Assembly (NCBI RefSeq): GCF_006658505.1
Contig: NZ_VFUZ01000010.1
Location: 1 to 64,000 of the forward strand
Origin: Mesorhizobium sp. B2-4-15
GTDB lineage: Bacteria > Pseudomonadota > Alphaproteobacteria > Rhizobiales > Rhizobiaceae
Length of the DNA stretch: 64,000 bases
Reading direction: 5' to 3'
Below, one piece after another: positions 40,793-43,216 of this stretch. The notes beneath the pieces are model-generated. The model searched no databases, was not told where the DNA came from, and saw only the letters and a list, made by a program, of their open reading frames with translations. Within the stretch, counting starts at the first letter, position 1, and every line of letters begins with the position of its first letter. A program made the translations under genes and the position numbers.

Positions 40793-41371
40793 TTAACCCG
40801 GCGCCGCCAGTGCCTTTTTGATCTGCGGCAGCAGGAGATCCCTCGCCGACTCCGCCGTCAGCGGGCCGACATGCTTGTAGGCTATTCTGCCGTCCTTGCC
40901 GATGACGAAGGTTTCCGGCACGCCATAGACACCCCAGTCGATCGCCGTGCGGCCGGCTTCGTCGACACCGATGGCCTGGAACGGATTGCCGAGGTCGCCG
41001 AGGAAGCGGCGGGCGTTTTCCGGCCGGTCCTTGTAGTTCAGCGCCGCCATGGCGAAGCGCTTGTCCTGCGCCAGCGCCAGCAGCACCGGATGCTCTTCCC
41101 GGCACGGCGCGCACCATGAGGCAAACACGTTGACCAGCGTGACCTTGCCGGCGAAGGCCTTCGAATCGAGCCCCGGCAGGTTTGACCCTTCCAGCGCCGG
41201 CAGGCTGGTTTGCGGCGCCGGCAACCCGATGAGCGCCGAGGGCACTTCCGAAATATCGCGTCCCGACAGCAGCTGCGACAGGAACAGTCCCGCCAGGCCG
41301 AGGAAGACCAGCAGCGGCAGAAACACGAACAGGCCCCGACGGGGGGGCGGTGTTTCGCTTTCACTGCTCAT
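40793..41371 (-). CDS. ccmG: Cytochrome c biogenesis thiol reductase CcmG (DsbE)
   Basis: A 192-residue, membrane-anchored periplasmic thioredoxin. One N-terminal helix (about 14-32), then a TlpA-like domain with the redox motif WCAPC in FASWCAPCREEHPVL, cis-Pro region YGVPETFVI and the family GVDE acidic patch. It keeps apocytochrome CxxCH Cys reduced. Its ATG overlaps the ccmD stop (ATGA). Confidence 0.95.
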   Translation of the reverse strand: MSSESETPPPRRGLFVFLPLLVFLGLAGLFLSQLLSGRDISEVPSALIGLPAPQTSLPALEGSNLPGLDSKAFAGKVTLVNVFASWCAPCREEHPVLLALAQDKRFAMAALNYKDRPENARRFLGDLGNPFQAIGVDEAGRTAIDWGVYGVPETFVIGKDGRIAYKHVGPLTAESARDLLLPQIKKALAAPG

Positions 41372-41541
41372 GACTTCGGTGTCCCGGCCTTGTCGGAACG
41401 GCGTCGCACGCCGGCCGCTTCGAGTTCGGCAAGCTCGCGTCTGCGCGCCCGCTGGTCGAGCAGGATCCAGCCGATCAGCCCGGCCAGGACCACGGCGGTG
41501 ATGCCATAGGCAGCGGTGACATAGAGGGCATGCGCGCTCAT
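41368..41541 (-). CDS. ccmD: Heme exporter protein CcmD
   Basis: A 57-residue small membrane protein: a short periplasmic start (MSAHALYVTAAYG), one helix (ITAVVLAGLIGWILL), and a basic tail (DQRARRRELAELEAAG). This is the CcmD pattern; it helps release holo-CcmE from CcmABC. It overlaps ccmG by four bases. Upstream, an open frame of 20 codons (from ATG at 41601) ends in a TGA overlapping the ccmD ATG. This is where the end of ccmC would normally be coupled, but ccmC is absent. Confidence 0.85.
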   Translation of the reverse strand: MSAHALYVTAAYGITAVVLAGLIGWILLDQRARRRELAELEAAGVRRRSDKAGTPKS

Positions 41542-41685
41542 GCCGGCCGCTCCATCGACGTCCTTTTTTCCGGCCGGACCGTTTCACCTCGCTCGATCAT
41601 GCTTTTCCCTTAACGGCCTGCCCGTGGCTTCGCAATCGGCTGCCGCGCCGCGGTCCCAAACCTGCATGGTCGCCGCCCCGACGCA

Positions 41686-41699
41686 TTGATGTCGCGCAA
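41686..41699. promoter_or_regulatory. FNR/FixK-like anaerobox before ccmD
   Basis: TTGATGTCGCGCAA has the TTGAT half-site, a four-base gap and a CGCAA half (consensus TTGAT-N4-ATCAA; looser rhizobial forms keep TTG-N8-CAA). It is 145 bp before ccmD, in the ccmB-ccmD gap. If active it would give ccmDG an oxygen-controlled promoter. Confidence 0.4.
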
Positions 41700-41718
41700 A
41701 CCCCCTGGCCGACGTCAC

Positions 41719-42384
41719 TCAATCCGTACCATGGCGCAAGGCCAGTGCCGCCGAGACCGGCCCCAGCACGGCAAGAAACAGCGTCAGCGCGGCAAGAATG
41801 AGGAAGGGTTGCAGGAACGGGTCGGGATTGGCCGTCGCGCCGTAGCTCGCCGAAACGCCGAAGATCAGCACCGGGATGGTCAGCGGCAGCACCAGCACCG
41901 AGATCAGCAGCCCGCCGCGCGGCAGCGCCACCGCCACGGCCGCCCCCGCGGCGCCGATAAAGGTGATCGCCGGCGTGCCGACCAGCAAAGTGAGCGCCGT
42001 GGCGCCGATTGCCAGCGGCTCCATGTTCATGAACAGGCCGAGCAAGGGGGCTGCGACCACCAGCGGCAGCACGCTTCCGGCCCAGTGCGCCAGGCATTTC
42101 ACCAACACCGTCAGAGCCAGCATGTGCCGGTCGTTGCCGAGAACCAGCAGGTCGAGCGAACCGTCCTCACGGTCGGCCTGGAACAGTCGGTCGAGCCCCA
42201 GCAGGCAGGACAGCAGCGCCCCGATCCAAAGGATCGCCGGGCCGATGCGGGAAAGCAGCTTCAGGTCCGGCCCGACACCGAACGGAATGGTGGCGATGAC
42301 GGCAAGGAAGAAGATGACGCCGGTCAGCGCGCCGCCGCCGGCGCGGATCGAGAGGCGGATGTCGCGCAGGAAGAGGGCTAGCAT
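41719..42384 (-). CDS. ccmB: Heme exporter membrane protein CcmB
   Basis: A 221-residue inner-membrane protein with six hydrophobic segments and the CcmB pattern: an early LFLRDIRLSIRAGGG, then FFLAVIATIPFGVGPD, LDRLFQADREDGSLD and GGLLISVLVLPLTIPVLIFG. It works with CcmA and CcmC. It is separated from ccmA by a dispersed repeat and from ccmD by 177 bp in which no ccmC is found. Confidence 0.94.
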   Translation of the reverse strand: MLALFLRDIRLSIRAGGGALTGVIFFLAVIATIPFGVGPDLKLLSRIGPAILWIGALLSCLLGLDRLFQADREDGSLDLLVLGNDRHMLALTVLVKCLAHWAGSVLPLVVAAPLLGLFMNMEPLAIGATALTLLVGTPAITFIGAAGAAVAVALPRGGLLISVLVLPLTIPVLIFGVSASYGATANPDPFLQPFLILAALTLFLAVLGPVSAALALRHGTD

Positions 42385-42430
42385 GAGCGGAGCGCCCGTG
42401 CGGATCTACCATCCCAACGATGGCGTTCTG

Positions 42431-42591
42431 TCACACCCCCCTCTGTCCTTCCGGACATCTCCCCCGCAAGGGGGGAGATTGGCAGCTTCGATGGGAGTAT
42501 TCTTTCTGCAGCGTTAGCGATTGGCGAAAGCAGAGATGACAGCCGATCTCCCCCCTTGCGGGGGAGATGCCCGGCAGGGCAGAGGGGGGCG
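42431..42591. repeat. Dispersed repeat between ccmA and ccmB
   Basis: Outer arms CACCCCCCTCTG and CAGAGGGGGGCG; inner arms ATCTCCCCCGCAAGGGGGGAG and ATCTCCCCCCTTGCGGGGGAG; middle GTTAGCGATTGGCGAAAGC. The TTGGCGAA middle and the GCCCGGCAGGG tail relate it to the CTCCCCGTA family. It lies within an operon that is usually tightly packed. Confidence 0.8.
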
Positions 42592-42607
42592 CCGTAGAGC
42601 CCGGACA

Positions 42608-43216
42608 TCAGCCGGCCTCCCCCATCCGCAGCGCCTTTGCCCCCTCGATACCCAACGGCAGATGCGTCGCCGCCACAACAATCCCTCCGTCCCCCAGATG
42701 CCTCCGCATCAGCCCCGCGAACCGCGCTTCCGAAGCCTTGTCCAGCCCCGCCGTCGGCTCGTCCAGCAGCCACAACGGCCGATGGCTGACCAGCAGTTTC
42801 GCGATCGCCGCGCGGCGCCGCTGCCCCGTCGAGAGATAGCCGAACGGCAGATGGCCGATGCCACCCAGCCCGACCGTTTCCAGCGCCTCTTCGACGCCGA
42901 CATCTCCGCTGCCATCGAACTCCCGCCAGAAGCGCAAATTCTCGGCCACGCTGAGCGCGGTCTTCATCGCGTTCTGATGACCGAGATAATGGCAGGCCGA
43001 AGCGATGGATGGAAACGCCTCACCACCGCCCTCGAGCAACAGACCGCCCTCGGCCTTCGGCAGCAGCCCGGCGATGATCCGGAGCAGGGTTGATTTGCCG
43101 GCGCCGTTCGGCCCCGTGACGACCAGCGCCTGGCCCTGGTCGAGCGCGAAGCCAATGCCGGAAAAAACCGATTCGCCGCCGCGTTCGCCGCCCAGATTTT
43201 CGGCGATAAGCCGCAT
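42608..43216 (-). CDS. ccmA: Heme exporter ATP-binding protein CcmA
   Basis: A 202-residue ABC ATPase. Walker A GPNGAGKSTLLR (about 38-45), signature LSTGQRRRAAIAKL, Walker B LWLLDEPTAGLD and the H-loop AATH. It drives release of holo-CcmE. ATG 43216 gives the usual length; the frame extends upstream without homology. It is the first gene of the ccm cluster and is divergent from acnA, with a possible Irr box between them. Confidence 0.93.
   Translation of the reverse strand: MRLIAENLGGERGGESVFSGIGFALDQGQALVVTGPNGAGKSTLLRIIAGLLPKAEGGLLLEGGGEAFPSIASACHYLGHQNAMKTALSVAENLRFWREFDGSGDVGVEEALETVGLGGIGHLPFGYLSTGQRRRAAIAKLLVSHRPLWLLDEPTAGLDKASEARFAGLMRRHLGDGGIVVAATHLPLGIEGAKALRMGEAG

Follow-up and report, generated by a model that had tools for sequence, protein, structure and literature searches.

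Synthetic bicistronic design leaders place a short first cistron in front of the gene of interest and couple the two. The ccm locus described here resembles them in that a short first cistron appears coupled to the next gene, but it arose in nature, out of a gene that moved elsewhere. Compared with the standard alphaproteobacterial ccmABCDG operon, the order of ccmA, ccmB, ccmD and ccmG is kept, whereas a shell stands where ccmC was. Coupling by termination and reinitiation at overlapping gene pairs has been demonstrated experimentally elsewhere (PMC6728339), and the present locus shares with the ATGA overlaps reported there the stop/start overlap and a Shine-Dalgarno (SD)-like site towards the 3' end of the upstream frame; unlike the pairs described in that report, the upstream frame is no gene, only what is left of a moved one, 7-25 codons in length. 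In rhizobia, 171 leaderless starts were mapped in Sinorhizobium meliloti (PMC3616915), and trpL is a leaderless leader ORF that acts as an attenuator with a functional peptide (PMC10117765). These systems and our locus have in common an AUG at or near the transcript start behind a sigma-70-like promoter, which is a prediction for our locus, and a short leader ORF; in contrast to the account given of trpL (PMC10117765), the peptide of the ccmC shell seems unconstrained and coupling is its likely role.

The searched open-licence literature yielded no paper on ccmC relocation or its leader. Relocation itself belongs to ordinary genome evolution, and a coupled leader ORF is of a known kind; the interest lies in the retained in-phase shell, and what is new is that the leader was made from a departed gene. 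Our analyses favor, with a probability of about 0.7, the reading that a copy of ccmC, promoter included, was placed beside ndvA, while the original was gutted and retained to serve ccmDG as promoter and translationally coupled leader.

Gene order in the window and the second site of ccmC

The window, a 64,000-nt stretch of DNA from Mesorhizobium sp. B2-4-15 that was analyzed as a whole, carries on its minus strand ccmA, ccmB, a 177-bp gap, ccmD and ccmG, in that order. All gene names are NCBIfam matches above cut-off: ccmA (42608..43216, the piece tested; TIGR01189, 221 bits versus a cut-off of 131.6), ccmB (41719..42384, 221 aa; TIGR01190, 258 bits), ccmD (41368..41541, 57 aa; TIGR03141, 66 bits) and ccmG, matched as DsbE family (40793..41371; TIGR00385, 177 bits). 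The initial annotation had stated that ccmC is missing here, and both the coordinates and the identity of the neighbors agree: ccmB ends at 41719, ccmD starts at 41541, and the 177 bp in between contain no ccmC. It had also described a 20-codon frame terminating like the end of a ccmC, and this was confirmed as well, since the TGA of the mini-ORF (41538..41600, minus strand, 20 codons) overlaps the ATG of ccmD as ATGA, the junction with which ccmC usually ends on ccmD in relatives that retain it in place. What the annotation did not contain is that the first codon of this frame stands where ccmC once started, preceded by the promoter-like element of ccmC itself. This element, a consensus match and not a mapped promoter, reads TTGCG-N17-TTAA at 41608..41635 of the minus strand (TTGCGA 41635-41630, TTAAGG 41613-41608), and the ATG follows 35 nt from TTG. 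Inside the mini-ORF, GGAG at 41550..41553 (minus strand) is a candidate SD of ccmD. In addition, an inverted repeat rich in G+C (cccccttgcgggggagat) lies in the ccmA-ccmB spacer (window 42385-42604), which is much shorter in some relatives.

A profile search of the window genome, a 6.09 Mb draft in 61 contigs, detected two cytochrome c assembly family proteins, one on contig C12 and one on contig C34. The former, with 664 open codons, is ccmF judging by its size and by neighbors that look by eye like ccmI and ccmE. The latter is an intact CcmC of 250 aa without a stop (C34:182864-183613), identified by NCBIfam TIGR01191 at 270 bits versus a cut-off of 186, and its translation carries the tryptophan-rich WGTWWVWDARLTS, which we take to be the WWD-type motif. 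It begins 139 nt downstream (3') of a gene that matches ChvA/NdvA (TIGR01192, 838 bits), the exporter of glucan, and an aldolase/racemase-like gene faces it. The initial annotation had held ccmC to be elsewhere, lost, or lost in assembly; the full-genome search places it elsewhere, and the gene is relocated, neither lost nor an assembly error.

Upstream regions of ccmC at the old and new sites

Alignment of the ccmC-less gaps revealed a single conserved element, TTGCG, 17 nt and [CT]TA[AT]G, with an ATG about 8 nt later. In its strict form (TTGCN, 17 nt, [CT]TA[AT], ATG 34-36 nt from TTG), the element with its ATG was present in 53 of 61 gaps, versus a mean of 0.01 in dinucleotide shuffles. 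In relatives retaining ccmC the element lies directly before this gene, and the ATG is the ccmC start. Element plus ATG was found in 41/45 loci with ccmC then ccmD, 36/39 moved ccmC and 56/61 ccmC-less gaps (shells), counts in which loci of different genomes may overlap in species and which leave out two ccmC loci fitting neither the in-place nor the moved class. The TTG-to-ATG offsets were 35-38 in place, 35-36 at moved copies and 34-37 in shells. Five of the 61 gaps (L055, L058, L071, L091 and L098) gave no element with ATG or only a spurious call, although L071, negative by the search pattern, has a similar in-frame ATG when read by eye. Furthermore, a TGCGRC motif occurs 15-21 nt before TTG in 42/56 shells, 28/36 moved and 9/41 in-place loci, where shuffles gave means of 0.49, 0.23 and 0.18, respectively; the window's own gap lacks it. 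In four loci (L067, L074, L094 and L099), about 145 bp flanked by inverted ends are inserted right after ccmB, ahead of the shell promoter; the insert looks like a small mobile repeat.

Because the element, its spacing and TGCGRC are shared, the old and new upstream regions look descended from one ancestral ccmC upstream region, and such common ancestry at both sites points to copying instead of cutting. In the ancestor of Mesorhizobium and allied genera, ccmC plus its own upstream region would have been copied to a position 3' of ndvA/chvA, and the original coding sequence would then have been deleted internally. The old site would have retained the promoter of ccmC, an ATG where the gene started and the ATGA junction with ccmD.

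The explanation that survives best beside copying, though still unlikely, is a cut-and-paste event, in which ccmC took its promoter along and ccmDG, left behind, acquired both a promoter and a leader ORF afresh. Sigma-70-like promoters of Rhizobiales generally have this shape, TTG plus TA, and such a pattern could arise anew. The mini-ORF likewise shows no clear CcmC-like residues: a tblastn search with the window genome's CcmC returned no protein remnant in 60 gap loci, the mini-ORF has no clear leftover similarity to CcmC, and the MSK or MSQ with which it starts in L101, L102, G163 and G167, as do many CcmC N-termini, is too short to count. However, the spacing, the ATG offset and the TGCGRC distance are common to shell, moved and in-place copies, and an ATG at an identical offset is not expected of a new promoter.

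With regard to the transcript, an SD-like 4-mer precedes ccmC in only 1/41 in-place and 7/36 moved loci, and this near-absence of SD sites, together with the ATG spacing, suggests that the ccmC mRNA is leaderless. For the shell message a leaderless start may be doubtful, as the 4-mer stands before the shell ATG in 37/56 loci.

Frame and peptide of the mini-ORF

The four-base overlap alone is weak evidence, because it is automatic whenever ccmD begins ATGA; the real evidence is the upstream ATG staying in the overlap frame. At every shell locus having the element, the upstream ATG is in phase with the ATGA or GTGA overlap on ccmD, and all 58 candidate ATGs in 57 loci, chosen regardless of frame, are in the phase that ends on this overlap. 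The mini-ORF spans 7-25 codons in 56 loci, mostly 15-21; L098, in which the element lies inside an inserted gene, was left out of the length and phase counts and kept in the 57-locus stop count. Stops were found in the mini-ORF frame at 0/57 loci, versus 51/57 and 16/57 in the other two frames. On a tree from ccmB, ccmD and ccmG, the mini-ORF underwent at least 20 length changes and no phase change, while the upstream spacer, used as control, had 31 length changes, 19 of which altered its length modulo 3. These counts indicate that selection keeps the phase of the mini-ORF. A decaying pseudogene was rejected, as the mini-ORF shows neither the random frameshifts nor the stops of one.

It would be decidedly improbable, more so than cut-and-paste, that the mini-ORF is a passive decaying remnant with an accidental frame, ccmD relying on its own SD. 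Such a site does appear available, GGAG, GAGG or AGGA being present at -14..-5 of ccmD in 42/61 loci, versus 9% of random gap 10-mers, and some lineages have lost the mini-ORF. Against this, the chance of 0 frame changes in 20 length changes is about 3e-10 at 1/3 per indel, or 6e-9 at the spacer rate of 12/31. The losses count against the necessity of the mini-ORF: several other genera with ccmC beside ndvA are without it (G098, G103, G068, G127 and G139), and L055, L058 and L091 (and L071 by pattern) lack the element with ATG. In L148 (G098) and L160 (G103), where ccmC is beside ndvA, a promoter-like element is kept before ccmD, and the mini-ORF has given way to a short leader that carries an SD-like site. 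Five loci from at least three genera (L055, L058, L098, L144 of G145 and L149 of G127) have an orphan immunity gene of the Imm50 type where ccmC used to be; the L098 copy matched PF15594 with an E-value of 4.9e-18, and the others are alike by eye.

The mini-ORF could also encode a micropeptide with a function of its own or a leader peptide that attenuates, in keeping with its conserved frame and its length band of mostly 15-21 codons. We consider this very unlikely and rejected it, since the codon positions differed about equally often (18 loci of 20 codons, 1263/1204/1114; 13 loci of 15 codons, 444/450/424), leaving the amino acids unconstrained, and since lengths spread over the whole 7-25 codon range. 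Taken by the sequence comparisons, the frame of the mini-ORF appears to matter and the peptide does not.

The overlap of the mini-ORF with ccmD and the internal SD-like site amount to what we infer to be the anatomy of termination-reinitiation coupling. Under the copy-and-gutting reading, the shell would today most likely be a built-in bicistronic leader: RNA polymerase would start at, or a few bases from, the mini-ORF AUG; ribosomes would translate 7-25 codons that are unimportant in themselves and terminate at UGA; and re-initiation would take place at the overlapping ccmD AUG, aided by the SD that the mini-ORF itself contains. With putative promoters of one kind in front of both moved ccmC and ccmDG, CcmC and CcmD would stay co-expressed and the synthesis of the partners balanced. 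According to the heme work reported in PMC11868835, CcmB in excess expels heme and binding to CcmACD confines CcmB, so in that case imbalance among partners can matter. We lean, with less assurance than for the reading as a whole, towards regarding the hollowed ccmC as a bicistronic design made by nature, in which selection over many species would have preserved the promoter, the start codon and the stop/start overlap.

If so, copying a gene with its promoter and hollowing out the original in frame would be a route by which a gene can exit a tightly coupled operon without silencing the downstream genes. In addition, dozens of natural mini-ORFs, variable in length and sequence with the phase fixed, offer material in which leaderless initiation and termination-reinitiation can be tested in Alphaproteobacteria. 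They are also a warning that where operon genes are separated by a short frame lacking annotation, this frame may be what a moved gene left behind as a functional shell.

Distribution of the arrangement and gene trees

Among 61 genomes of the genus, ccmB was found in 61 and ccmC in 60; the genome without a ccmC match (G042) is a 570-contig draft with a ccmB-ccmD gap of the usual kind. The two genes are apart in all 60 genomes having both, on different contigs in 44 and at least 2.5 Mb from each other in 16, and the separation is seen also in many single-contig genomes. The gap was likewise compared with relatives, as the initial annotation had proposed: around relatives of the window's CcmB, 60 of 80 named loci have ccmB then ccmD without a ccmC match, 15 have ccmC in place, including Phyllobacterium, Ochrobactrum and Mesorhizobium microcysteis, and in 5 the stretch covered shows none of C, D and G, contig ends cutting 2 of these 5. 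The named loci closest to the window are from Mesorhizobium. In a sample of 121 family genomes, in which ccmB and ccmC were each found in 120, ccmC adjoins ndvA in at least 12 genomes of 11 genus codes, this being the number among the ccmC neighborhoods read. Of 10 relatives with ccmC in or near its place by ccmB, 8 have a close ndvA (69-76% identity), and no match to the window ccmC or to its aldolase-like neighbor was detected within 1.5 kb of it. The rearrangement of ccmC is old.

Whether it happened once or several times was addressed with gene trees. In the tree of ccmB plus ccmC, a single clade with support unites all 10 moved rows; its other rows, of 17 in total, are six with ccmC in place and one that is block-moved, and these are interspersed with the moved ones. 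Free trees implied 3-5 label changes; by the AU test, a single clade was not rejected for ccmB plus ccmC (p 0.45; 0.31 without G068), ccmC alone (p 0.77, the held tree being better) or ccmB alone (p 0.38), all of them proteins too short to resolve the trees. The joint trees were made without rows G014 and G103, in both of which ccmC adjoins ndvA, and G142, a long branch, was dropped from later trees. The shared landing site at ndvA argues for a single relocation; a single origin of the moved ccmC is not rejected by these sequences, but the free trees do not recover it.

Replacement by a foreign ccmC that was transferred to the site beside ndvA is, if anything, slightly less probable than a micropeptide. 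The poor resolution of trees from short proteins leaves some room for it, but in the tree, whose rows are all from the family, moved CcmC is placed amid the CcmC rows native to it, holding the moved rows as one clade gave a higher likelihood, and moved and in-place ccmC have the upstream motif in common. As for an assembly error or a real deletion without replacement, for which the 61-contig draft state of the window genome might speak, the intact C34 copy and the same order genus-wide, seen in single-contig genomes as well as at 60 named loci, refute true loss and assembly artefact alike and therefore make this reading negligible.

A different arrangement, in which ccmC, ccmD and ccmG are together but away from ccmAB, was observed in L150/L135 (G093), L152 (G120) and L153/L162 (G146), and block-moved likewise in L156/L164 (G142), L157/L165 (G082), L158/L166 (G161) and L159/L167 (G144). 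In view of these block-moved genera, a break before the ccmC promoter probably occurred more than once.
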